Program-made: the position numbers and the translations under genes
The notes under the pieces: generated by a model
Seen by the model: only the letters and a program-made list of their open reading frames with translations
What the model was told of the DNA's origin: nothing
Database searches by the model: none
Assembly: GCA_005804885.1 (NCBI GenBank)
Contig: SYOX01000381.1
Location: 1 to 64,000, forward strand
DNA length: 64,000 nt
Direction of reading: 5' to 3'
Source: Pseudomonadota bacterium
GTDB lineage: Bacteria; Myxococcota_A; Bradymonadia; Bradymonadales; GCA-2716585
Shown here: positions 43,178 to 61,342 of the stretch, in pieces
How the letters are laid out: every line of letters starts with the position of its first letter
Numbering within the stretch: position 1 is the stretch's first letter

Positions 43178-45181
43178 ATGTCATACTCGGGCATGATCGG
43201 CGAGCACCTCGGAAGGTACCGTGTCGAGGAGGAGGTCGGCCAGGGCGGCATGTCCGTGGTCTACCGAGGCCGCGACACGGTGCTCCAGCGCCAGGTCGCC
43301 ATCAAGGTCCTGCACCCCCACCTGCAGAACCGGGCCGAGTCCAGGGCGCGCTTTGAGCGCGAGGCGCAGGCCGTCGCCAAGCTCTCCCACCCTAACATAT
43401 TGCAGATATACGACTTTTCTGAAGCAGGCAGCACGCGCAGCTACATCGTCACCGAGTTCATCCGGGGCAAGACGCTGCGGGACTTCATCGACGACCGGCC
43501 GATCGCGCACCCCGAGGTCGCGGCGATGATGGGGGTGCAGCTGTGCGAGGCGGTGCAGCACGCCCACGAGCTGGGGATCATCCACCGGGACATCAAGCCC
43601 GAGAACGTGATGATCTGCGAGGACGGGGTGCTCAAGCTGATGGACTTCGGCATCGCGCAGATCCTGGACGCCCACGCGATGACGATGACGGGGACCCTGC
43701 TGGGCTCGCCGGCGCACATGAGCCCGGAGATGATCGAGGGGCTGCCGCTGGACTTCAGGGCGGACGTCTTCAGCCTCGGGACGCTGCTCTACTTTGCGGC
43801 CACTGGCGAGCTGCCCTTCACGGGGTCCAACCCGCCGCTGGTGCTCAAGGCCATCCTGGAGGGGAACTACACCGAAGCCGAGATGGTCAACCCGCGCGTG
43901 GGGCGGACGCTGTCGAGGATCATCGACCGGTGCCTGGAGCGCGACGCCGAGGATCGCTTCGAATCGATGAGCGCGCTGCGCGACAGCCTCAAGGCCTTCC
44001 TCGATGACTGCAACCTCGGCGAGGTCGACGCGTGGCTGGCGAGCTACCTCGTGGAGGCCAGAGGGACGACCGTGCGGCTGCGTGGGCACCTGCTCGAGGT
44101 GCTGGAGCGTCGAGGCCGGGAGGCGCTCAAGGCCGGGAGGGTGGCGCAGGCGCTGGAGTACTTCAACCGCGTCCTGGCCATCGATCCTGAGCACGAGCAG
44201 GTCCTGCGGCTCATCCGCCGCATCGACATGCGGCGCAAGGTCTACGTCTATGTGGGGGCCGCGGCGATGTTGCTGGTGACGGCCAGCGTCGTCGCCTGGG
44301 CCAGCGCGGACCCCGACGAGCCGCCCGAGCGGCCCACGCCTGCCCCCGTACTCGCCGTCGACACCGCCCAGGTCGAAGACGACGCGCGCTTCCTGGCCGA
44401 CGCCACGGGCCGCCAGAGTCGGAAGTTGACCCGCGATCTGGCCGTCGCGCAGGAGCAGATCAGGGCTCGCGCGGTCGTCGCCGGCCAGCAGCAGGCCACC
44501 TCGCTGCGCGTGAGCGCCGAGTCCGTCGCCCAGGCCATCGCAGCGCCCGACGCCGACGATCCCAGGGCCTCCAACGGGAAGAACGATCCGAAGGGCACCG
44601 CCCGCAAGGACGACAAGGAGGCCTTGGCGAGGGCGGGCGATCCGGCCAAGGACGGGGCGCCGATCGGCGACGCGACGCCGGTCAAGGAGGTCGCGGTTCA
44701 GGAGGAGCTCGTCCTGGTGCGCTTCAGCCTCCAGAACCCCAAGGAGGGCATCAGCGTCGAGGTCAACGGCCAACCCTATACAAACGCTCAACTTTCCAAG
44801 GGGGTCCGCGTGCCTCGCGGCCTGATCAAGTACACCGCCACCCACGCCCTGTGCGAGACCTGGCGGGCCTCGATCCCGGACGGGGGCCGGGATCTGATCA
44901 ACGTCGCCGTCAAGCTCAAGTTCAAGCCCGGCGCGCTCTACGTCGACTCGGGCGAGGATCGCAACGCCTTCGTCCAGATCTACGACATCACCGGGTCGCA
45001 GATCGCCCACGGCCGCTCCCACGCCACGATCAGCGTCCCGATCATCGATCCCGAGAGCGGGCGGCGCAGCTTGAAGGTCAACGTCATCCCGAGCATCGCG
45101 GGCGCGCGGCCAGCGCTGGGTCGACAGGTCATCGTGACGGCGGGCCGCCCCACGCGATTGAGCGTGAACTTGAAGCCCTGA
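43178..45181 (+). CDS. Membrane-anchored Hanks-type Ser/Thr protein kinase
   Basis: This 667-residue protein has an N-terminal kinase domain (about residues 10-275) with all key residues: glycine loop GQGGMSVVYRG, K43 in VAIKV, catalytic HRDIKPEN (D138), DFG at 156-158 and GSPAHMSPE as the activation-segment end. A TPR-like segment follows at about 310-350 (EALKAGRVAQALEYFNRVLA). One transmembrane helix lies at about 355-373, and a periplasmic region of about 290 residues contains PEGA-like strands (ISVEVNGQPYTNAQLSKGVR). It probably phosphorylates cytoplasmic targets in response to an envelope signal. Candidate readers are the FHA proteins encoded on either side. Confidence 0.92.
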   Translation: MSYSGMIGEHLGRYRVEEEVGQGGMSVVYRGRDTVLQRQVAIKVLHPHLQNRAESRARFEREAQAVAKLSHPNILQIYDFSEAGSTRSYIVTEFIRGKTLRDFIDDRPIAHPEVAAMMGVQLCEAVQHAHELGIIHRDIKPENVMICEDGVLKLMDFGIAQILDAHAMTMTGTLLGSPAHMSPEMIEGLPLDFRADVFSLGTLLYFAATGELPFTGSNPPLVLKAILEGNYTEAEMVNPRVGRTLSRIIDRCLERDAEDRFESMSALRDSLKAFLDDCNLGEVDAWLASYLVEARGTTVRLRGHLLEVLERRGREALKAGRVAQALEYFNRVLAIDPEHEQVLRLIRRIDMRRKVYVYVGAAAMLLVTASVVAWASADPDEPPERPTPAPVLAVDTAQVEDDARFLADATGRQSRKLTRDLAVAQEQIRARAVVAGQQQATSLRVSAESVAQAIAAPDADDPRASNGKNDPKGTARKDDKEALARAGDPAKDGAPIGDATPVKEVAVQEELVLVRFSLQNPKEGISVEVNGQPYTNAQLSKGVRVPRGLIKYTATHALCETWRASIPDGGRDLINVAVKLKFKPGALYVDSGEDRNAFVQIYDITGSQIAHGRSHATISVPIIDPESGRRSLKVNVIPSIAGARPALGRQVIVTAGRPTRLSVNLKP

Positions 45182-45186
45182 GCGTG

Positions 45187-45193
45187 CTATAAG
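45187..45193 (+). promoter_or_regulatory. Possible extended -10 element upstream of the TPR gene
   Basis: TGCTATAAG, an extended -10 form, lies about 35 bp before the ATG at 45227. No convincing -35 element is placed correctly, so this is weak support. Confidence 0.3.
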
Positions 45194-45226
45194 TGGCGGC
45201 TCTACGACGACCTGCGTCGAGTCGCA

Positions 45227-46414
45227 ATGGCACAAGCCCCCCGACAACCCGCCCCCCCAGGAGACGGCCGCTTCGCGCCCGCGCTCCCCGCTCTGATCGC
45301 GCTGGCCTTGCTCATCGGCGCGTCGCCCCCGAGCTCTGCGCTGGCCCAGGCGCCGCCCGTGGACGAGGCGCCGGTCGACGCCTCGCCCGAGCCAGAGGCC
45401 GTCGACCCAGACGGCGCCGATCAGGACGACGACGGTCAAGACGACGACGGTCAAGACGACGCCGATCAGGACGACGCCGGGCCTGAAGACCCTGAGCAGG
45501 GCGAGCAGGTCGACGCGGGCGTGGGCGCCGAGGGTGTCGAGGGAGAGCAGGAGGTGGTGGCGGCGATCGACGAGGCGAAGCAGGCCTACGTCGAGGATCG
45601 CTACGACGAGGTGGTCGGGCTGCTTGAGCCGCTGGCCGAGAGCCCCGACCGGGTGCCCGAGGTGCTCAGGTCCGAGGTGTACAGGCTGCTGGGGCTGGCC
45701 TTTCTGTCCATCGAGGCGCCGGATCGCGACAAGGCCGAGGTGTGGTTCGAGGCGCTGCTCAGGCTCCAGCCGGACTTCTTCTTCACCGAGGGGCTGGTGA
45801 GGCAGGACGCCATCGATCTGCTGGAGGAGACGCGGGCGCGGCTGGGCAGGGCCGGCGGAGAGGGGGAGCCGACGATCACGACGATCTACATCCAGAAGGA
45901 GGTCCGCGAGCACCTCTTCTGGGTCGTCTTCATGCCCTTTGGTCTGGGGCAGTTCCAGAACGAGGAGGACGGCAAGGGGGTGTTCCTGGCCTTGACCCAG
46001 GGGCTCTCGCTGGGGATCAACGTGGGCAGCTTCGCCTTCATCGAGACGCAGCTGCGCGGCCCCACGGGCTTCTTCACCGAGGAGGACGCGGCGCTGGCGG
46101 GCAGCCTCCAGACGACGCAGTTCATCACGCTGGGGATCTTCGTGGTGCTGGTGGCGGTGGGGATCGTGGACGCGTGGTACAACTACAGCGACGAGGTGAT
46201 CGAGATCCGCACGCTGCCCGGCCCGCCGGACGAGTTGACGCAGCGCCCCGAAGATCCCATCCTGAGCAGCGCACGACAGACGCCCATGGGCGCGCTGCCC
46301 GAGGCCGGGGCGGGATCGGCGGGCCGCGCCGCGCTCCCGACGGGCGAGGGTGGCGACGCGCTCGGCGCTCTGCCCTCGCCTGTGATGTTGTTTGAGATGG
46401 AGTGGCGCTTCTAG
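45227..46414 (+). CDS. Secreted/membrane TPR-like protein with Asp-rich repeats
   Basis: This 395-residue protein has a signal peptide or anchor (LPALIALALLIGASPPSSAL, cleavage after ALA near residue 40). An acidic low-complexity stretch made of DQDDDGQDDDG repeats comes next. TPR-like helices follow (about 110-200: EEVAAIDEAKQAYVEDRYDE-like, and EVWFEALLRLQPDFFFTEGL), and the C-terminal part has two hydrophobic segments (VFLALTQGLSLGINVGSFAF and FITLGIFVVLVAVGIVDAWY). GxGQFQNxxxxKG preceding a membrane segment recalls DUF5683-like envelope proteins. It sits between the kinase and the sigma-54 activator; its part in signalling is unknown. Confidence 0.75.
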   Translation: MAQAPRQPAPPGDGRFAPALPALIALALLIGASPPSSALAQAPPVDEAPVDASPEPEAVDPDGADQDDDGQDDDGQDDADQDDAGPEDPEQGEQVDAGVGAEGVEGEQEVVAAIDEAKQAYVEDRYDEVVGLLEPLAESPDRVPEVLRSEVYRLLGLAFLSIEAPDRDKAEVWFEALLRLQPDFFFTEGLVRQDAIDLLEETRARLGRAGGEGEPTITTIYIQKEVREHLFWVVFMPFGLGQFQNEEDGKGVFLALTQGLSLGINVGSFAFIETQLRGPTGFFTEEDAALAGSLQTTQFITLGIFVVLVAVGIVDAWYNYSDEVIEIRTLPGPPDELTQRPEDPILSSARQTPMGALPEAGAGSAGRAALPTGEGGDALGALPSPVMLFEMEWRF

Positions 46415-46455
46415 GGCCTCGCGGCCTGCGCCCAAGCCCGAAGAGGTCGCGATCG

Positions 46456-48252
<1,797 letters not shown>

Positions 48253-48367
48253 GCGGACGCTCCGCCCCTCCCTTGCGGGCCTCCACCATGGCAAGGATGT
48301 CACAGGCGCCGCGTGGCGCTCGCCTCCGAAGCCCTCGTCGTCCTCCTGAAGGCGGGAAGTCGACGGG

Positions 48368-48383
48368 TGGCACGGCCGTTGCT
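48368..48383 (+). promoter_or_regulatory. Consensus sigma-54 (-24/-12) promoter
   Basis: TGGCACGGCCGTTGCT matches TGGCACG-N4-TTGCW exactly. It lies 33 bp before the start of the lipoprotein gene at 48417 and directly follows the sigma-54 activator gene, a classic arrangement of activator and target. Confidence 0.88.
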
Positions 48384-52214: not shown

Positions 52215-54797
52215 ATGATCAAGAAGACCTCCGCGCACGCCTTGTCGCTGGCGCTCTTCGGGGCGCTCGCGCTCCAGGGCGGCTGCCTGCCCGCCTACGA
52301 TCCCGACGATACGGCCTTCAACGGCCAGGGGCCCGGCCGGGTCAACTGCGAGGCCCCCGCCGGCGAGGTCTGCGACGGCCTCGACAACGACTGCGACGGC
52401 CAGATCGACGAGGACTTCCCCCGCCGCGGCGTCCCCTGCGGCATCAACGTCGGCGTCTGCCTCGGCGTGACGATCTGCGAGGCCGGCCAGGAGTCCTGCG
52501 CCCAGGTCCAGGCCCCCGAGGACGAGGACTGCGACGGCCTCGACAACGACTGCGACGGCCTCGTCGACGAGCTGACCGAGACCGACCCGAACAACTGCGG
52601 CGCCTGCGGCGCCGTCTGCCTCGTCGGCGGCGGGCAGGCCGGGTGCCGCGCTGGCGAGTGCGTCGTCGAGGGCTGCGACGCCGGCTTCCTGGACTGCGAC
52701 AGGGATCCGGTCAACGGCTGCGAGACCGACGCCTCCTCCGACCCGACCAACTGCGGCGCCTGCGCCAACATCTGCTCGGCCGAGTTCGCCGAGTCCGTCT
52801 GCCAGAACGCCCAGTGCGTCATCCAGGACTGCCTCGGCGGCCGCACCGACTGCAACGCCGCCCCCATCGACGGCTGCGAGGCCGATCTGAGCGTCGACAC
52901 CCTCAACTGCGGCGTCTGCGGCATGCGCTGCGACTTCCCCAACGCCCTGGCCCGCTGCCAGGAGAACCTCTGCGTCTTCGACGCCTGCCTCAACGGCTTC
53001 GGCGACCGCGACGTCAACCCCGCCAACGGCTGCGAGATCGGCCTCCAGCTCCTCTCCTCTCCCCCCGACCCCCAGCTCGCCAACCTCGCCCGCGGCGGCA
53101 ACATGCTCTTCGGCGCCGCCGACAACCGCCTCATCGGCTACCCGCTCGCCAACGACGGCGCCATCGGCGCCCTGGCCTTCTCCCTGCAGCTCGCCGGCCA
53201 GATCCTCCAGATCGACGCCGCCGGCCCCACCGTCTTCGCCGCCCTGGCCCAGGGCGACATCCAGATCATCGACACCCGCGACCCCGCCAACCCCACGGCG
53301 GTCGGGCTCGTGCCCACCTCCGGCCCCTCGCCTGGCTTCGCCCGCGAGGAGCAGATCCTCTTCGTGGCCGACGGCCGCGATGGCCTGCGCGTCGTCAACG
53401 TCGGCAACTCCAGCGAGCCCATCCAGATCGGCCGCGCGCCCACCCCCAACACCGTCAACCAGGCCTTCCTCTCCGGTGAGCGCCTCATCCTCAACGGCGC
53501 CGGCCGCAGCGACTTCCACCTCTTTGACGTCAGCGACAAGGCCAACCCCGACCTCATCGCCACCTTCGAGGCCCAGGGCCCCTTCGATCAGGCCGTCCTG
53601 AGCGGCGACCTGCTCATCACCGGCCAGTCCGGCCAGAACACCATCCGCCTCTACCGGCAGGACGCCGCCCAGCTCACCTTCCTCGGGCAATCCTCCCTGC
53701 CCGGCCCGCTCGTCTCCATGGATCTGCGCTTCCCCTTCGTCATGGCCGTCGTGCGCGGCCCTGACGGCCGGGTCAACTTCGTCCTCGTCGACATCCGCAG
53801 GCCCCAGCAGCCCACCCTGGCCAACACCTTCGCCGCCCCCGTCCCCAACGAGGCCTCCTCCGCCGTCGTCTCCGGCACCCAGGTCATCATCTCCGGCACC
53901 AGCGGCCTGCAGCGCTTCGAAATCACCGACCTGCGGCGCCCCATCAGCCTCCAGGACCTCGTCCGACCCCAGGACCTGCGCGACATCGACGTCAAGGGCA
54001 CCCGGCTCTTCGTCGCCGCCAACGGCTCCGTCGAGATCCTCGACAACACCGACCCCCAGACCCCTGTCAGAATCGCGAGGCTCGGCGCGGACTTCCGGAA
54101 CATCCACCCCACCGACACGAGCCTCTTCGTGACCTCCGACGCCCAGGGGATCGTCGGCTACCGGCTCAACGGCATCAACGACAACACCCCGCCCTTCATC
54201 ATCATCGAAGGCCCGCGCCCCTCGGCCCTGCTGACCGACGCCACCGGCAACATCATCTACGCCCTGCGCGACTCGATCCTGGAGACCATCAACATCAACG
54301 GCGACATCAACACACGCGGCTTCCTTGAGCTGCCCGGCTCCTGCCGCGCCATGATCCGCCACCAGAGCATCATCTACCTGGCCTGCAACAACGGCCTCGT
54401 CGCCGTCGACCCCCAGACCCCGCCGAACAGCCCCGTCGTCGTCGGGCAGGCCGGCGGCGGCGACCTCTACGCCATCGAGCTCTTCGGCCAGACCGTCTAC
54501 GCCCTGACCGACTCCGAGATCGCCGCCTTCACCGCCCTCTCCCCCGGCACCGTCAACCACGTCGGCTCGGTCGGCCTGGGCATCTCGGGCCTGCGCCACA
54601 TCGCCGGCGCCGGCCCCTACATGATCGTCGGCTCCGGCGCCGAGCTGCGGCTCATCGACCGCGCCAACCTCACCAACGTCGTCCCCGTCGCCATCCGCAC
54701 CCTCGAAGGCGCCGTCGTCGACGCCGCCGCCTCCCCCAACACCTTCTACGCCGGGACCACCCAGGGGGTCTTCCGCCTCAACGTCGAGGCGCCCTGA
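52215..54797 (+). CDS. MopE-like Cys-rich lipoprotein with LVIVD beta-propeller
   Basis: This 860-residue protein has a signal with lipobox LQGGC (about residue 20). Two MopE-type putative metal-binding repeats (VCDGLDNDCDGQIDED and DCDGLDNDCDGLVDE) come next, then three NCGACG-type Cys-rich modules to about residue 280. The rest is a beta-propeller of LVIVD-like repeats: DIQIIDTRDPANPTAVGLV, GLRVVNVGNSSEPIQIG, DFHLFDVSDKANPDLIATF and VEILDNTDPQTPVRIARLG. Such proteins are common surface lipoproteins in myxobacteria and relatives; copper or calcium binding by the CDG motifs is suggested by MopE but not proven here. Its stop shares a base with the next start. Confidence 0.9.
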   Translation: MIKKTSAHALSLALFGALALQGGCLPAYDPDDTAFNGQGPGRVNCEAPAGEVCDGLDNDCDGQIDEDFPRRGVPCGINVGVCLGVTICEAGQESCAQVQAPEDEDCDGLDNDCDGLVDELTETDPNNCGACGAVCLVGGGQAGCRAGECVVEGCDAGFLDCDRDPVNGCETDASSDPTNCGACANICSAEFAESVCQNAQCVIQDCLGGRTDCNAAPIDGCEADLSVDTLNCGVCGMRCDFPNALARCQENLCVFDACLNGFGDRDVNPANGCEIGLQLLSSPPDPQLANLARGGNMLFGAADNRLIGYPLANDGAIGALAFSLQLAGQILQIDAAGPTVFAALAQGDIQIIDTRDPANPTAVGLVPTSGPSPGFAREEQILFVADGRDGLRVVNVGNSSEPIQIGRAPTPNTVNQAFLSGERLILNGAGRSDFHLFDVSDKANPDLIATFEAQGPFDQAVLSGDLLITGQSGQNTIRLYRQDAAQLTFLGQSSLPGPLVSMDLRFPFVMAVVRGPDGRVNFVLVDIRRPQQPTLANTFAAPVPNEASSAVVSGTQVIISGTSGLQRFEITDLRRPISLQDLVRPQDLRDIDVKGTRLFVAANGSVEILDNTDPQTPVRIARLGADFRNIHPTDTSLFVTSDAQGIVGYRLNGINDNTPPFIIIEGPRPSALLTDATGNIIYALRDSILETININGDINTRGFLELPGSCRAMIRHQSIIYLACNNGLVAVDPQTPPNSPVVVGQAGGGDLYAIELFGQTVYALTDSEIAAFTALSPGTVNHVGSVGLGISGLRHIAGAGPYMIVGSGAELRLIDRANLTNVVPVAIRTLEGAVVDAAASPNTFYAGTTQGVFRLNVEAP

Positions 54798-55630
54798 TGA
54801 GCACGACCCCAACCTCCACCCTGGCCGCCGCCCTGGCCGCCGCCCTCCTGCTGATCCTGGCCGCGCCGACCGCCTCGGCGCAGTCCAAAGCCGACACCCA
54901 GCGCGCCGTCAAGCTCGCCGAGGACGCCCGCAACGCCTTCGCCGAGGACCGCTTCGCCGAGGCCGCCGAGCTGCTCAAGCAGGCCTTCGAGATCTACCCC
55001 GAGCCCAACTTCGTCTGGAACATGGCGCGCGCCTACGAGATGGCCGGCCTCGACGACGAGGCCCTGGCCAGCTACCTGCGCTTCAGCACCCTGGAGGTCG
55101 AGGAGCCCGACCGCGAGGCCGCCCTGGAGCGCGCCGCCCGCTTCACCGCCCTGACCACCCTGCCGCCCATCATCCAGGAGGCGCAGGCGAGCGCCGAGCT
55201 CTCCTCCCTGCGCCGCGACAACTCTGCCCTCCGGAGATCCGTGGCCGAGCGCCCCGAGCCCAAGCCCTTGCCCGCCGAGGGCATGTCGCTCTTCGAACTC
55301 GGCGGCTGGTCCTCGGCCGGCCTGGGGGTCGTGGCCCTCGGCGCCGCCTTCACCCTCCACCTGGCCTCCATCGGCACCGTCGAGGAGTACAACAAGACCG
55401 CCGCCCAGGGCCTCGACTCCGGCAAGTACGAGGCCCTGCGCGACACCCTCAACACCCGCGTCGTGACCTCCCGCGTCCTCCTCGGCACCGGGCTCGCCCT
55501 GGCGGCCAGCGGCGGCGTGCTGCTCTACCTCGAATACTTCGCCCAGGAGCCGCCCGCCACCGGCGGGCTGCTGCTCGCCCCCGCGCTGGGGCCTGACACC
55601 GCTGGCGCCCTGATCCAGGGCTCCTTCTGA
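54797..55630 (+). CDS. Secreted TPR protein with C-terminal membrane hairpin
   Basis: This 277-residue protein has a signal peptide (ALAAALLLILAAPTASAQ, cleavage after ASA) and a TPR pair at about 35-105 (ARNAFAEDRFAEAAELLKQA, FVWNMARAYEMAGLDDEALA). Two hydrophobic segments lie near the C-terminus (about 172-193 and 230-252). This layout is common in myxobacterial envelope proteins of unknown function. It is translationally coupled to the MopE-like lipoprotein gene (TGATG), so the two products may act together at the envelope. Confidence 0.8.
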   Translation: MSTTPTSTLAAALAAALLLILAAPTASAQSKADTQRAVKLAEDARNAFAEDRFAEAAELLKQAFEIYPEPNFVWNMARAYEMAGLDDEALASYLRFSTLEVEEPDREAALERAARFTALTTLPPIIQEAQASAELSSLRRDNSALRRSVAERPEPKPLPAEGMSLFELGGWSSAGLGVVALGAAFTLHLASIGTVEEYNKTAAQGLDSGKYEALRDTLNTRVVTSRVLLGTGLALAASGGVLLYLEYFAQEPPATGGLLLAPALGPDTAGALIQGSF

Positions 55631-55643
55631 CCCGGAGAGCCTC

Positions 55644-56471
55644 ATGAGCGCGCTCGACAAGGCCATCGAGGCCTCCCTTGAGGGCATGAACCTGCGCTCC
55701 TCCCGCGAGGGCGCCGCGATCACCGCCACGCGCGGCGCGGGCCTCCAGCGCACCAGCGCGACCCTGAACCTCGACCCGCTTCGCGCCTGGCTCGACGCAC
55801 ACCCCGGCGCCGACCTCAAGCGCGCCACCGGCGCCTTCGCCCGCGGCGTCCACGCCGTCCTGAACGAGCCCCCCAACAGCGACGCCGCCGCCTGGTCCTT
55901 CGTCGAGGCCGCCGGCCGCCTGACCCCCTCGATCGAGTTCGCCACCTTCGAGACCGGCGTCCAGGCCACCGGCTCGGGCCGACCCTGGCTCGTCGACTTC
56001 AGCCCCGACCTGAGCGTCGCCTACACCATCGAGCTCGACCGCGGCACTCGCATGCTGACCTGGGCGCAGTTCCTCCAGTGGGGCGTCACCCCGGACCGCG
56101 TCACCAGCGCCAGCCGCTCGCTGCTCTACTACAAGACCGCCCAGCACGCCCTCGGCGGCGGCTTCGAGCCCGACGCCGCCTCCGGCGGGCAGACCTACAG
56201 CGTCGGCGACGGCATCGGCGCCGCCCGCGCCTTGATCCTCGGCGACCTCGACTACCACAGAGCCCGCCGCGGCATCCTCTTCGCCGTGCCCCACCCCGAC
56301 CTGCTGCTCACCCTCGACCAGCAAACCGACCCAGCCGCCCTGGACCGCTTCAAGGCCGCCGCACAGGCCGCCTACAGCGCCGCCGACTTCCCCCTGAGCC
56401 CCCTGATCTACACCCACGCCGCCTCCGGCGCAGGCGACCACCGCGCTCTGGAGACCCCAGCCTGGGCATGA
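55644..56471 (+). CDS. DUF1444-like protein
   Basis: This 275-residue soluble protein has a middle and C-terminal part (YSVGDGIGAARALILGDLDY, then RGILFAVPHPDLLLTL) that resembles the YtpQ/DUF1444 pattern of a conserved helix followed by a VPN/VPH-D strand. The N-terminal part includes LDAHPGADLKRATGAFARGV. The function of that family is unknown, and the match here is by eye only. The gene overlaps the DUF1285 gene by 4 bp and starts 13 bp after the TPR gene, suggesting an operon. Confidence 0.6.
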   Translation: MSALDKAIEASLEGMNLRSSREGAAITATRGAGLQRTSATLNLDPLRAWLDAHPGADLKRATGAFARGVHAVLNEPPNSDAAAWSFVEAAGRLTPSIEFATFETGVQATGSGRPWLVDFSPDLSVAYTIELDRGTRMLTWAQFLQWGVTPDRVTSASRSLLYYKTAQHALGGGFEPDAASGGQTYSVGDGIGAARALILGDLDYHRARRGILFAVPHPDLLLTLDQQTDPAALDRFKAAAQAAYSAADFPLSPLIYTHAASGAGDHRALETPAWA

Positions 56472-56992
56472 CCGAGCCGACCATCGACCCCACGCTCCCC
56501 GAGGTCGTCCGACGCTTCCTGGCCGCCGGCGCACGCCTGGAGTCCATACGCCTCGACGCCTCGGGCGTCTGGTGGCACGAAGGCGGCCGGGTCGAGAACC
56601 CCCGCGTCGCCGCGCTCTTCTCGCGCAGCGTCAACCGCACGCCGGGCGGCACCTGGGTGCTGGAGATCGCCCCCTTCACCTACCCCATCGAGGTCGAAGA
56701 CACCCCCCTCTTCGTCGAGAAGATCGCCAGCGACCGCGACGACCCCGGCCACCCCGACGAGCGCCTCACCCTGACCCTCTCCGACGCGACCACCGAGGCC
56801 CTGATCCCCGACTCGCTGGCCTACGACGCGCTCCGAGGCATGACCTGCGCGGTCAAGGGCGGCCGCTTCGAAGCCCGCTTCAAGCGCCCCGCCTTCCACG
56901 CCCTGGCCGACCGCCTCGAAGAGATCGAGGGCGGCTTCGCCCTGCGCGTCGCGGGCCGCGCCATCCCCCTCGTGCCGACGCCAACCCCATGA
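56468..56992 (+). CDS. DUF1285 family protein
   Basis: This 174-residue protein has the DUF1285 layout: SIRLDASGVWWHEGGRVENP, AALFSRSVNRTPGGTWVLEI, FTYPIEVEDTPLFVEKI, then the C-terminal half with LDAS-like strands and GRFEARFKRPAFHALAD. The family is cytoplasmic and of unknown function. Both ends overlap neighbouring genes by 4 bp (ATGA), so it is in the middle of a tightly coupled run between the DUF1444-like protein and the esterase lipoprotein. Confidence 0.85.
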   Translation: MTEPTIDPTLPEVVRRFLAAGARLESIRLDASGVWWHEGGRVENPRVAALFSRSVNRTPGGTWVLEIAPFTYPIEVEDTPLFVEKIASDRDDPGHPDERLTLTLSDATTEALIPDSLAYDALRGMTCAVKGGRFEARFKRPAFHALADRLEEIEGGFALRVAGRAIPLVPTPTP

Positions 56993-57990
56993 CATCAAAC
57001 CACTTCCTGATATGCGCCGCCGCCCTCTCTGGCATCCTGGCGACAAGCTGCGGCCACAACGCCCCCTCTCCTCCCCCCTACGATCACACCCGCCCGCTCG
57101 GCCAGGGCCGCTGCGATCCAGCCGGGCCTGGGCCGGGGGTCCACTTCAGGAGCGCGGAGATCGGCGGGCACCTTCGAATCTGGCAGATCCATGTCCCCAA
57201 GGGTGCCAAGGCCGCGTCGCGCGCTCCGGTGGTGATGGCCTTCCACGGCGGCATGGGGACGGCGCAGAGCCTCATGAGCCGCGCGGGCCTGGCCCAGAAG
57301 GCCGAGGAGGCCGGCTTCATCCTCGTCGCACCCGAGGGCACGGGCACCTTCCAGACCTGGAACGCCGGGAACTGCTGCGGATACGCCCGACGAGAGGGCG
57401 TCGACGACGTGCTCTTCGTGCGCCACATGCTCGCGGCGCTGGACGCGGAGTTCTGCGTCGACCCCGACCGCATCTACGCCACCGGGCACTCCAACGGGGC
57501 CATGCTCAGCTACAGGCTCGCCTGCGAGGCCGCCGACCTCGTGGCCGCCATCGCCCCGGTCGGCGGCGCCTCCGGACAGCTCGACAGAGCGCTCGATCCG
57601 CCCGCCGACGCCTACCCCTGCGCGCCGAGCCGGCCCGTCCCCGTCCTCCACATCCACGGCTCGAAGGACGGCTGCTACCGCTTCGACGGCGGCGTCGGCG
57701 ACGGCCCCTCCGGCGTCGACGCCACCTCCGTCCCCGAGACCCTCGCGACCTGGGGCGCCCTCAACGGCTGCGGCGAAGGCCGGGAGATCACTCTGCGCCA
57801 GGGCGCCGCGACCTGCGAGGCCCGGGAGGGCTGCGCCGCGGACACGATCCTGTGCACCATCGACGGCGCGGGCCACGTCTGGCCTGGGCGCAACGACTAC
57901 CCCTCGCTGCGCATCTGCGGCGGCACCACCACCGACGACCTCGACGCCAACGACCTCATGTGGTCCTTCTTCGCATCCCACCCTCGATAA
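56989..57990 (+). CDS. PHB depolymerase/feruloyl esterase-like lipoprotein (LpqC type)
   Basis: This 333-residue alpha/beta hydrolase has a signal ending ILATSC (lipobox near residue 21). The catalytic triad can be placed: nucleophile Ser in ATGHSNGAMLSYRLAC (about residue 167), Asp in IHGSKDGCYRF (about residue 226) and His in DGAGHVWPG (about residue 295). The oxyanion region is VVMAFHGGMGTAQS. Several Cys pairs suggest disulfides, as in secreted polyhydroxybutyrate depolymerases and CE1 esterases. It probably sits on the cell surface or in the periplasm and cleaves ester-linked polymers; the substrate is unknown. ATG 56989 overlaps the preceding stop. Confidence 0.9.
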   Translation: MTSNHFLICAAALSGILATSCGHNAPSPPPYDHTRPLGQGRCDPAGPGPGVHFRSAEIGGHLRIWQIHVPKGAKAASRAPVVMAFHGGMGTAQSLMSRAGLAQKAEEAGFILVAPEGTGTFQTWNAGNCCGYARREGVDDVLFVRHMLAALDAEFCVDPDRIYATGHSNGAMLSYRLACEAADLVAAIAPVGGASGQLDRALDPPADAYPCAPSRPVPVLHIHGSKDGCYRFDGGVGDGPSGVDATSVPETLATWGALNGCGEGREITLRQGAATCEAREGCAADTILCTIDGAGHVWPGRNDYPSLRICGGTTTDDLDANDLMWSFFASHPR

Positions 57991-58095: not shown

Positions 58096-58111
58096 CGGTA
58101 CGCGCGTTGCA
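58096..58111 (+). promoter_or_regulatory. Sigma-54-like promoter upstream of the PBP1C homologue
   Basis: CGGTACGCGCGTTGCA keeps GG and GC with the correct 10-bp gap and matches TGGCACG-N4-TTGCW at all but two positions. It lies 28 bp before the ATG at 58140. A perfect hairpin-forming repeat, CAGGCGA-CGCCC-TCGCCTG (58051-58069), lies just upstream. Confidence 0.5.
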
Positions 58112-58139: not shown

Positions 58140-60359
58140 ATGGAAAAGGCAAGATCGACATGGGCGAGCGCCATGGTCGGCGCGATCAGGATCGGGGCGA
58201 CGGGCGCGCTGGCGATCTCGCTGGTCAGCAGCGCCGCGCTGGCCTGGGTCGTGTCCGCGCCCTTCCCCCTGACGAGGCTCGCGGACACCGGCAAGGGCTC
58301 GACGCTGGTGACCGACCGCAAGGGGGCGCCGCTGCGCGAGCTCCTCGACGGCCACGCGACCCGCTCCGAGTGGATCGACCTCGACCGCGTCTCTCCCTGG
58401 CTCATCAAGGCCACGCTCGCCGGCGAGGATCACCGCTTCTACGAACACCCCGGCGTCGATCCCTGGGCGCTGGCCCGCGCGCTCAAGCTGGCCGGCGAGC
58501 AAGGCCGGATCTACAGCGGCGCCTCCACCCTGACCATGCAGCTCGTGCGCATGACCGAGCCCAGAGGCGCGGCCCGCACCCTGGATTACAAGGCCGAACA
58601 GGCCGCCCTGGCGCTGCGCCTGGAGCGCGCCCTGCCCAAGGACGAGATCCTGATCCAGTACCTCAACCGCCTGCCCTACGGAAACGGCGTGCGCGGCCCC
58701 GAGGCGGCCAGCCGCCTCTACTTCCAGAAGCCCGCCGCCGACCTCTCCCTGGCCGAGGCCGCCCTTCTGGCCGCCCTGCCCCGCTCCCCAGCAGGCTACA
58801 ACCCCTACCGCCACCCTGAGCGCGCCCTCAAGCGCCAGCGACACATCCTCGCCCTGATGCGCGCCCGAGGCGTCATCGACGACGCGCAGCTTGAGCGCGC
58901 GCTGGCCTCCACCCTGACCCTCCACAAGCCCCGGCCCAGCTTCGAAGCGCCGCACTTCGCCACCTGGCTCGGCCTCCAACACCCCGAGATCATTGAAGAT
59001 CGCCCTCAGGTGGTGCGCACCACCCTCGACCTCGACCTCCAGAAGAAGGCCCACGGCGCCGTCCTGACCCGGCTCGACGCGCTGGAGGCCGACGAGGCCG
59101 ATCAAGCCGCCGTCGTCGTGCTGGACAACGCGCGCGGCGAGCTGCTGGCCATGGTCGGCTCACGGAGCTGGCACGACCTGGACGGCCAGGGGCGCTTCAA
59201 CGGCGCGACGGCGCTGCGGCCCTCGGGCTCGATCCTGGCCCCCTTCGTCTCGGCCACCGCCTTCGAACACGGCGCGACGCTGGCCACGGTCCTGCCCGAC
59301 CTGGAGCTGCCGTTGACCCTGCCCGACGGGCGGCGCCTCCTTCTGCGCGACCACGATCGGGGCATACGCGGGCCGCTGCGGCTGCGGCAGGCCATCGCCT
59401 CAAACCTGGAGATCCCGGCCTCGCTGCTCCTGGACGCGCTCGGCAATGAGACGGTGCTGATGCGCCTCCACGCGATGAACCTGCGCACCCTCGATCAGCC
59501 ACACGACCGCTATGGGCTCGTGCGGCCAAGAGGCCTCGGGCGAGCCAGCCTCCTCCAGCTCACGGCGGCCTTCAGCGCCCTGGCCCGAGGCGGCCAGTGG
59601 TCCCCGCCCGCAGCCCTCCTGAGCGTCCGCCACCACGACCGCCCCCTCGACGTGGGCCTCTGGCAGGGCGAGCCCGCCCGGATCTTCTCTCCCGAGGCCG
59701 CCTTCATGGTCACGGACGCCCTGTCTGACGAGGGCGAGCGCCTGGACAAGGGCCACCTCGGCCCCCTGCCCTTCCCCGCCGCCGTCGCCACCGGATCGAG
59801 CGACGGGGGCCAGGACCTGTGGGTCATCGGCTACACCGCGCAGGTCACCGTCGGCGTCTGGGTCGGCCGCTTCGATGGCAGGGGGCGCAAGGCCGGCGAC
59901 GCCGCGGCCCTGGCAGGCCCCATCTTCGAGGAGGTCATGAGCGCGGCCATGGCGCGTCACACCCCGAGGCTCTTCGTGGCCCCGGAGAGCTTCGCGGTCG
60001 TGGACGTCTGCCCGCTCTCCGGCAAGCAGGCCGGCCCCGCCTGCCCCCACAGCGTCGAGGAGATCTTCGCCACCGGCGACGACCCCACCGAGGTCTGCCC
60101 GTGGCACGTCCAGGTCCCCATCGACCGCCGGAACGGCTTCCAGGCCGGCCCCACCTGCCCCGAGGAGCACGTCCTGACCAGGCCCTTCACGCGCCTGCCC
60201 GAGGAGTACCGAGGGTGGGCCGGGCAGCGCCCCTCGCGCCGCCTGCCGCGCGGCCTCTCGCCGCTCTGCCCCGTCACGGGGGAGCCGGACAGGCCCGCCC
60301 CCCTCAACGGCGTCCTGCTCGACGCCGCCGACTTCGAATCGCGAGCCTGGGCGCTCTGA
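58140..60359 (+). CDS. pbpC: PBP1C-like glycosyltransferase with inactive transpeptidase domain
   Basis: This 739-residue protein has an N-terminal membrane anchor (about 9-35) and a GT51 peptidoglycan glycosyltransferase domain (about 60-235). The domain is intact, with the EDHRFYEHPGVD catalytic Glu, GASTLTMQLVR, KAEQAALALRLE with the second Glu, and YLNRLPYGN. The transpeptidase-like domain (about 300-600) has lost its catalytic residues. SxxK reads S364-I-L-A367, the SxN region reads SNLE (421-424), and KTG reads ATG (550-552). The PBP1C C-terminal Cys motifs remain (VCPLSGKQAGPACPHS), but the BiPBP_C domain is missing. It may polymerise glycan strands without cross-linking. GGAGG precedes the ATG. 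Confidence 0.9.
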   Translation: MEKARSTWASAMVGAIRIGATGALAISLVSSAALAWVVSAPFPLTRLADTGKGSTLVTDRKGAPLRELLDGHATRSEWIDLDRVSPWLIKATLAGEDHRFYEHPGVDPWALARALKLAGEQGRIYSGASTLTMQLVRMTEPRGAARTLDYKAEQAALALRLERALPKDEILIQYLNRLPYGNGVRGPEAASRLYFQKPAADLSLAEAALLAALPRSPAGYNPYRHPERALKRQRHILALMRARGVIDDAQLERALASTLTLHKPRPSFEAPHFATWLGLQHPEIIEDRPQVVRTTLDLDLQKKAHGAVLTRLDALEADEADQAAVVVLDNARGELLAMVGSRSWHDLDGQGRFNGATALRPSGSILAPFVSATAFEHGATLATVLPDLELPLTLPDGRRLLLRDHDRGIRGPLRLRQAIASNLEIPASLLLDALGNETVLMRLHAMNLRTLDQPHDRYGLVRPRGLGRASLLQLTAAFSALARGGQWSPPAALLSVRHHDRPLDVGLWQGEPARIFSPEAAFMVTDALSDEGERLDKGHLGPLPFPAAVATGSSDGGQDLWVIGYTAQVTVGVWVGRFDGRGRKAGDAAALAGPIFEEVMSAAMARHTPRLFVAPESFAVVDVCPLSGKQAGPACPHSVEEIFATGDDPTEVCPWHVQVPIDRRNGFQAGPTCPEEHVLTRPFTRLPEEYRGWAGQRPSRRLPRGLSPLCPVTGEPDRPAPLNGVLLDAADFESRAWAL

Positions 60360-60685: not shown

Positions 60686-61342
60686 ATGGCAGCCATCAAG
60701 TGCAGCAAGGTGCGGCAGCGCGCCGCGTCATTTTGCGAGGATCACCTCGTCCACCTCCGTCCCCTGAAGGTCGGCAGCCGCAACCGGGAGGAGCGCTTCG
60801 TCTTCCCCGAGGTCGGCGATCTGAAGGGCACCTCCTTTGAGCTCTGCGCCGACGAGGTGAGCTTCGTCAACGGGCTGATCGGGGGTCAGGCCAACCAGGG
60901 GATGCGTCGACACAACCTGTGGCTCTACCGCACCGACCAGCAGCGCAATGCGGGCGACTTCGTGCTCATCGACGTCTCCAGCCCGCCGCGCCGCATCGGG
61001 CCGCTCCAGGTTCCTTGCTGGGACGTCTTCATCCTCGATCTGAAGATGAACGGCAGGTTTCAGCTCGGAGGCAGCGGCGCGGGCTTCCAGCTCAACGACT
61101 GGGAGCGGGCCGCCGAGTCGGCCATCACGACGACGGCCAGGACCCGAGGGGTGCTGCCGGAGCCTCACCAGGGGCTCGGGCTGTGGCATCGCCTCGTGGA
61201 GCCCCGGTGCGTCTGGCGCATCGTCGGCGACAGGCGAGATGTGCTGAGCTTCTTCCGCAACCTGCGCCTCATGAGGCGCCTGAGGCGGCGCGTGGGCGAC
61301 GATCCCAGGACGCTGGAGGGCCTCTTCGAGGCGCTCTGCTGA
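60686..61342 (+). CDS. Conserved-looking hypothetical protein
   Basis: This 218-residue protein begins MAAIKCSKVRQRAASFCEDH. It contains FVFPEVGDLKGTSFELCADE, ANQGMRRHNLWLYRTDQQRN and FVLIDVSSPPRRIGPLQVPC, with a basic helical C-terminus (FFRNLRLMRRLRRRVGDDPR). No signal peptide or membrane segment is present. I do not recognise a family; the well-defined GAGG ribosome site and codon use support a real gene. The 180 bp after it hold no gene. Confidence 0.65.
   Translation: MAAIKCSKVRQRAASFCEDHLVHLRPLKVGSRNREERFVFPEVGDLKGTSFELCADEVSFVNGLIGGQANQGMRRHNLWLYRTDQQRNAGDFVLIDVSSPPRRIGPLQVPCWDVFILDLKMNGRFQLGGSGAGFQLNDWERAAESAITTTARTRGVLPEPHQGLGLWHRLVEPRCVWRIVGDRRDVLSFFRNLRLMRRLRRRVGDDPRTLEGLFEALC

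Follow-up and report, generated by a model that had tools for sequence, protein, structure and literature searches.

Class A penicillin-binding proteins (PBPs) are treated as bifunctional, and the reason for the lasting fusion of their glycosyltransferase (GT) and transpeptidase (TP) domains is not settled; the monofunctional glycosyltransferase MtgA has no TP domain. No function in making peptidoglycan is known for PBP1C under standard laboratory conditions (PMC7554673). In E. coli, overproduction of PBP1c restores LdtD-dependent labelling, and the protein was proposed as a source of extra glycosyltransferase activity when needed (PMC6131605), while the pair formed by alpha-2-macroglobulin (A2M) and PBP1C has been proposed to serve in envelope defence and repair (PMC4498604, PMC3328433). 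A TP-dead form of E. coli PBP1b, engineered by the substitution S510A, polymerises lipid II and is a sufficient GT partner of YcbB under ceftriaxone; when beta-lactams are present, it supports growth together with an L,D-transpeptidase (PMC5089857). The open literature that was searched does not describe any class A PBP whose TP is naturally dead.

The protein described here comes from a group of predatory bacteria and is encoded in a stretch of 64,000 nucleotides, which was analysed as a whole and is referred to as the window. It resembles PBP1C/PbpC (E. coli pbpC; TIGR02073) in its domain order, in its GT motifs, including a glutamine in motif 3, and in its TP fold, but it has lost all TP motifs, has no BiPBP_C domain, does not lie beside yfhM/A2M and has a sigma-54-like promoter of its own. 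As with monofunctional glycosyltransferases (MtgA; TIGR02070), it is predicted to polymerise glycan without cross-linking it; unlike MtgA, it retains the whole TP fold. The comparison with PBP1b S510A, whose GT is active without a TP, is similarly one of expected GT activity, but that protein is a laboratory mutant with one residue changed, whereas the present lineage is natural and has changes in three motifs. The protein is a new variant of PBP1C and not a new kind of enzyme.

Domain architecture and the glycosyltransferase half

The open reading frame begins with an ATG at 58140, with GGAGG just 5' of it, and its stop codon ends at 60359, exactly as first annotated. The features of the protein are the following:

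58140..60359, plus strand: TP-dead PBP1C, 739 aa (ORF call, alignments, tree and model)
58140..58256, plus strand: N-terminal membrane-anchor helix, residues 1-39 (helix 2-39 in the model; hydrophobic stretch in the sequence)
58326..58859, plus strand: GT51 peptidoglycan glycosyltransferase domain, motifs intact (Pfam Transgly and motif alignment)
59109..59939, plus strand: TP-fold domain without catalytic motifs, approximately residues 324-600 (Pfam, model and fold match)
59994..60284, plus strand: retained Cys-rich tail (CPLSG...CP...C..H...CP), not followed by BiPBP_C, unlike in the TP-intact paralogues

This protein is a PBP1C-type class A PBP. It has the succession of N-terminal membrane helix, GT51 domain and TP-fold domain that characterizes the class, without the catalytic SxxK, SxN and KTG motifs; its best NCBIfam family is TIGR02073 (PBP_1c), with 426.3 bits, which is below the equivalog cut-off of 494.2, and in the tree it groups with the PBP1C relatives from its taxonomic class. 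The Pfam Transpeptidase match is weak (2.7e-7), and BiPBP_C (PF06832) was not detected by Pfam in this protein or in its two TP-dead orthologues, while it is present in all five TP-intact paralogues tested, although the score of one falls under the Pfam cut-off.

The GT half had been described as intact, and it is: the Pfam Transgly domain matches at 3.2e-54 (183.5 bits), and the motifs EDxxFxxHxG, GxSTxxxQ, the lysine of motif 3 and KxxILxxYLN are all found, with the catalytic E96, EDHRFYEHPG, GASTLTMQ, K151 and K167. From these motifs the domain is predicted to polymerise lipid II. What counts against this is the second glutamate position of motif 3, which is a glutamine in the window protein and in one orthologue (genome G002), as might be expected if the GT were inactive too and the whole protein served as a scaffold or decoy. 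However, because this glutamine is shared by roughly one relative in ten and by E. coli PbpC, it is a trait of many PBP1Cs and alone no sign of inactivation. None of the remaining GT51 motif residues has been lost, and the GT is the best-conserved part of the protein, with 61-65% identity within the TP-dead group. A protein inactive in both halves is quite improbable, and the sequence comparisons favour a working polymerase with a dead TP.

Loss of the transpeptidase motifs

Alignment with the relatives located the three former motifs as follows:

59229..59240, plus strand: former SxxK, S364-I-L-A367
59403..59411, plus strand: former SxN, N422-L-E424
59787..59795, plus strand: former KTG, A550-T-G552

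The preliminary description had read SILA in place of SxxK and ATG in place of KTG, and both readings agree with the alignment and with the predicted fold, in which the former SxxK is carried by the expected helix (363-376) and the former KTG by the expected strand (548-553). Its reading of the SxN region as SNLE stands as regards the loss of the asparagine, but it was one residue out of register with the aligned columns, and the serine of SxN has therefore gone too. Nor are usable motifs hidden in another part of the protein: a scan of all 739 residues found no S..K and no [KRH][ST]G anywhere, and matches to [SY].N fall in the GT domain only, with none in the TP domain.

The residues S364, K367, S422, N424 and K550 are all kept in 148 of 151 aligned relatives, a set in which 79 sequences were sampled across the phylum and further loci belong to many other phyla. 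The only exceptions are the window protein and two orthologues, G003:C83 (MTLA, GRR and LTT) and G002:C305 (SILG, NLE and VTG). Since these three alone deviate, and each does so at all three motifs, the loss is not due to chance and is coordinated, as originally proposed. A sequencing or assembly error was rejected as its cause because the same positions are lost in the orthologues of two further genera. No further TP-dead PBP1C came up in the sequences of the class that were read, in the better-scoring members of the phylum sample or in 80 loci of other genomes.

With the lysines of SxxK and KTG gone, together with both residues of SxN, the protein is predicted to be unable to cross-link peptides, and its acylation by beta-lactams should be negligibly slow; covalent beta-lactam binding is accordingly predicted to be negative from the motif loss. 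The persistence of S364 in the window protein counts to some extent against a dead TP, and one could suppose that this serine, kept in two of the three orthologues, still acts with a different base. We find this hardly credible, for it is a methionine in the G003 orthologue, and the serine and asparagine of SxN and both lysines are missing in all three.

Distribution and origin of the TP-dead lineage

A search for orthologues in 57 genomes of the class retrieved two, 49% and 53% identical to the window protein. Their genomes represent two further genera of its family, which belongs to the order Bradymonadales; the N-terminus of G002:C305 very probably lies on the end of another contig, C529. 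In a maximum-likelihood tree the three TP-dead proteins form one clade with support of 100/99, recovered in all 200 bootstrap trees. The sharing of the losses across a clade, which the preliminary description had proposed to check, is therefore confirmed by three orthologues in a single clade, with the other 148 of 151 sequences intact; separate losses in unrelated genes were rejected on the basis of the same 200 bootstrap trees.

The sister group consists of two TP-intact PBP1Cs, G000:C140 and G002:C648, both located directly 3' of A2M genes in the classic yfhM-pbpC arrangement, as in E. coli. None of the three TP-dead genes directly follows an A2M gene, and no A2M gene was found near any of them, whereas the TP-intact paralogues in the family come after A2M. 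C140, encoded in the same genome as the window protein and its closest sister, is 67% identical to it in the GT and 46% in the TP; both C140 and a second TP-intact paralogue of this genome, C101, have sigma-54-like sites 5' of their operons, as the TP-dead gene does, but unlike it they have SxxK, SxN, KTG and BiPBP_C and directly follow A2M. Tree and gene order together suggest, as the simplest history, that an A2M-linked PBP1C was duplicated and that one copy then lost its TP chemistry and BiPBP_C. The inactivation probably took place in a common ancestor of at least three genera.

Constraint and predicted fold of the transpeptidase domain

Within the TP-dead clade the ratio of TP identity to GT identity is 0.67-0.81, versus 0.85-1.16 for close TP-intact relatives of the family. 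On a fixed tree, the ratio of TP to GT distance is 1.83-2.55 for the three TP-dead pairs, versus 0.43-1.79 for the TP-intact pairs compared, and 2.45 for the mixed pair of the window protein and C140. At the codon level, the TP was analysed by the NG86 method and by differences at each codon position: most change in the TP-dead genes falls at third positions, and GC3 is 0.80-0.94, as in the paralogues. Given these two observations, the TP domain of the clade is relaxed but still coding. The faster evolution of the TP and the loss of the C-terminal domain are what a decaying pseudogene on its way out would show, yet the reading frames are open in three genera at about 50% identity, the codon pattern is that of a coding gene, the GT motifs are intact and the promoter-like site is kept, which makes decay very improbable.

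The TP fold had been predicted to persist, and the AlphaFold model agrees (pLDDT 90.4), with Z of about 39 to solved TP domains; among these, 2v2f aligns with the model over residues 266-645 (Z 39.4, rmsd 2.4). That the domain was kept and not deleted counts against a purely vestigial TP, and it may do something more. One possibility is that the dead TP now serves for binding or regulation, with stem peptides, a partner PBP or A2M as its target, in a module that would gate the GT or recruit other cross-linkers and would be compatible with an active GT. The confidently predicted fold agrees with this, as does the constraint that persists at the codon level although a plain GT could drop the domain, as in monofunctional glycosyltransferases without a TP; moreover, non-catalytic roles of PBPs have been reported (PMC12539705). 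Nevertheless, the TP is clearly under less constraint than the GT, and three sequences are too few for spotting a new conserved pocket, so that we consider such a module unlikely.

This lineage is a natural separation-of-function protein, in which TP chemistry was discarded and the fold kept. It offers a means of testing for a structural or regulatory function of the TP fold, and of finding out if glycan polymerisation can be shielded from beta-lactams.

Sigma-54-like sites upstream of the TP-dead and A2M-PBP1C genes

58096..58111, plus strand: sigma-54 (-24/-12) promoter-like site CGGTACGCGCGTTGCA, its -12 GC ending about 30 bp before the ATG

This site lies in an intergenic gap of about 150 bp; it differs from TGGCACGN4TTGCW at two positions and retains GG and GC. 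Both orthologues are preceded by sites of this class, with two mismatches and 174 bp from the start in G002, and with one mismatch and 127 bp from the start in G003, which bears out the sigma-54-like promoter reported initially. The genome of the window, in addition to the -24/-12 element, has one rpoN match.

It could be argued that these are chance matches and that the gene is constitutive or otherwise controlled, since the consensus is short, the window's own site has two mismatches, and a search for a shared activator-binding motif 5' of eight sigma-54-like sites gave nothing better than shuffles. On the other hand, each of the three orthologues carries a site no more than 175 bp from its start, while such a site occurs in only 0.9-1.75% of random 250-bp windows, a background from which the chance of a site at both orthologues is about 2 in 10,000; and the pattern shows enrichment across the whole genome when no more than one mismatch is allowed (93 versus 28 in the reversed control). 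As far as regulation alone is concerned, chance matches thus seem improbable.

Same-class sites were also observed 5' of five A2M-PBP1C operons of the family:

L132:16381, minus strand: sigma-54-like site of an A2M-PBP1C operon
L128:15877, minus strand: sigma-54-like site of an A2M-PBP1C operon
L131:16134, minus strand: sigma-54-like site of an A2M-PBP1C operon
L140:1271, plus strand: sigma-54-like site of an A2M-PBP1C operon
L127:14914, minus strand: sigma-54-like site of an A2M-PBP1C operon

Three of the five are close to the A2M start, whereas the other two are roughly 570-820 bp upstream, which counts against shared regulation. The sites suggest that the bacterial alpha-2-macroglobulin defence system could be under sigma-54 control in this lineage, and because they recur at A2M-PBP1C operons, we read the TP-dead gene as a putative free-standing member of the same regulon. 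The finding also bears on the role of PBP1C, since this recurrence suggests that in this family PBP1C may be a conditionally induced repair polymerase. A defence and repair role of the A2M-PBP1C pair would suit predators that meet hostile enzymes.

Proposed function

The sequence comparisons support the initial proposal, which was of either a repurposed glycan polymerase or a non-acylated pseudoenzyme, and within it we judge it likely that the protein is a dedicated beta-lactam-blind glycan polymerase, controlled by sigma-54 together with the A2M/PBP1C envelope-repair genes, whose strands are cross-linked by other enzymes. In the mechanism that we infer, its GT would polymerise glycan strands without cross-linking them, and the absence of penicillin binding would leave it untrapped by beta-lactams; separate partners, namely TP-intact PBP1Cs, class B PBPs or L,D-transpeptidases, would cross-link the strands; and the sigma-54 promoter would switch the gene on conditionally, providing extra polymerase capacity for repair during envelope damage. 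The PBP1b S510A precedent indicates that a polymerase that neither cross-links nor is trapped is workable. The genome of the window has 10 matches to YkuD (the L,D-transpeptidase family) and 11 GT51 genes, so that possible cross-linkers and other polymerases are present.

A more speculative version, which we regard as possible although rather doubtful, is that of an inducible, naturally evolved two-domain pseudo-transpeptidase, untrappable by beta-lactams and making emergency glycan that separate enzymes would cross-link, whose TP fold would be a sensor or docking module coupling polymerisation to the A2M/PBP1C defence regulon.

As a separate observation, 11 GT51 genes and 10 YkuD matches make a large cell-wall synthase set for one bacterium.

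Neighbouring genes

60686..61339, plus strand: conserved 218-aa neighbour, found near all three TP-dead PBP1C genes

The relatives of this 218-aa protein are encoded at L126:774-1433 (minus strand), L125:3596-4261 (plus strand) and L203:9304-9888 (plus strand), and beyond the three TP-dead loci a clear copy is present in a single additional genome of the class. It has no Pfam or NCBIfam match, and its AF2 model is poor (pLDDT 56). Its invariant residues, E57, D91, D96, D118-x-K120 and Q135, faintly resemble those of a PD-(D/E)xK nuclease.

On the 5' side of the TP-dead gene there are, in order, genes for an LVIVD/MopE-repeat lipoprotein, a 277-aa protein, a 275-aa protein and a DUF1285-like 174-aa protein (52215-56989 in the window), an order conserved in G002 (L144:1587-6430); the PHB-depolymerase-like esterase that follows in the window (56989-57990) was not found at the G002 locus. 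Further upstream, the region 43193-48383 encodes a Ser/Thr kinase followed by an FHA-GAF-sigma-54 activator (46456-48249), and a perfect sigma-54 site, TGGCACGGCCGTTGCT, is located at 48368, after the activator and before the next gene. The kinase, the activator and this site could possibly form a local signalling unit.
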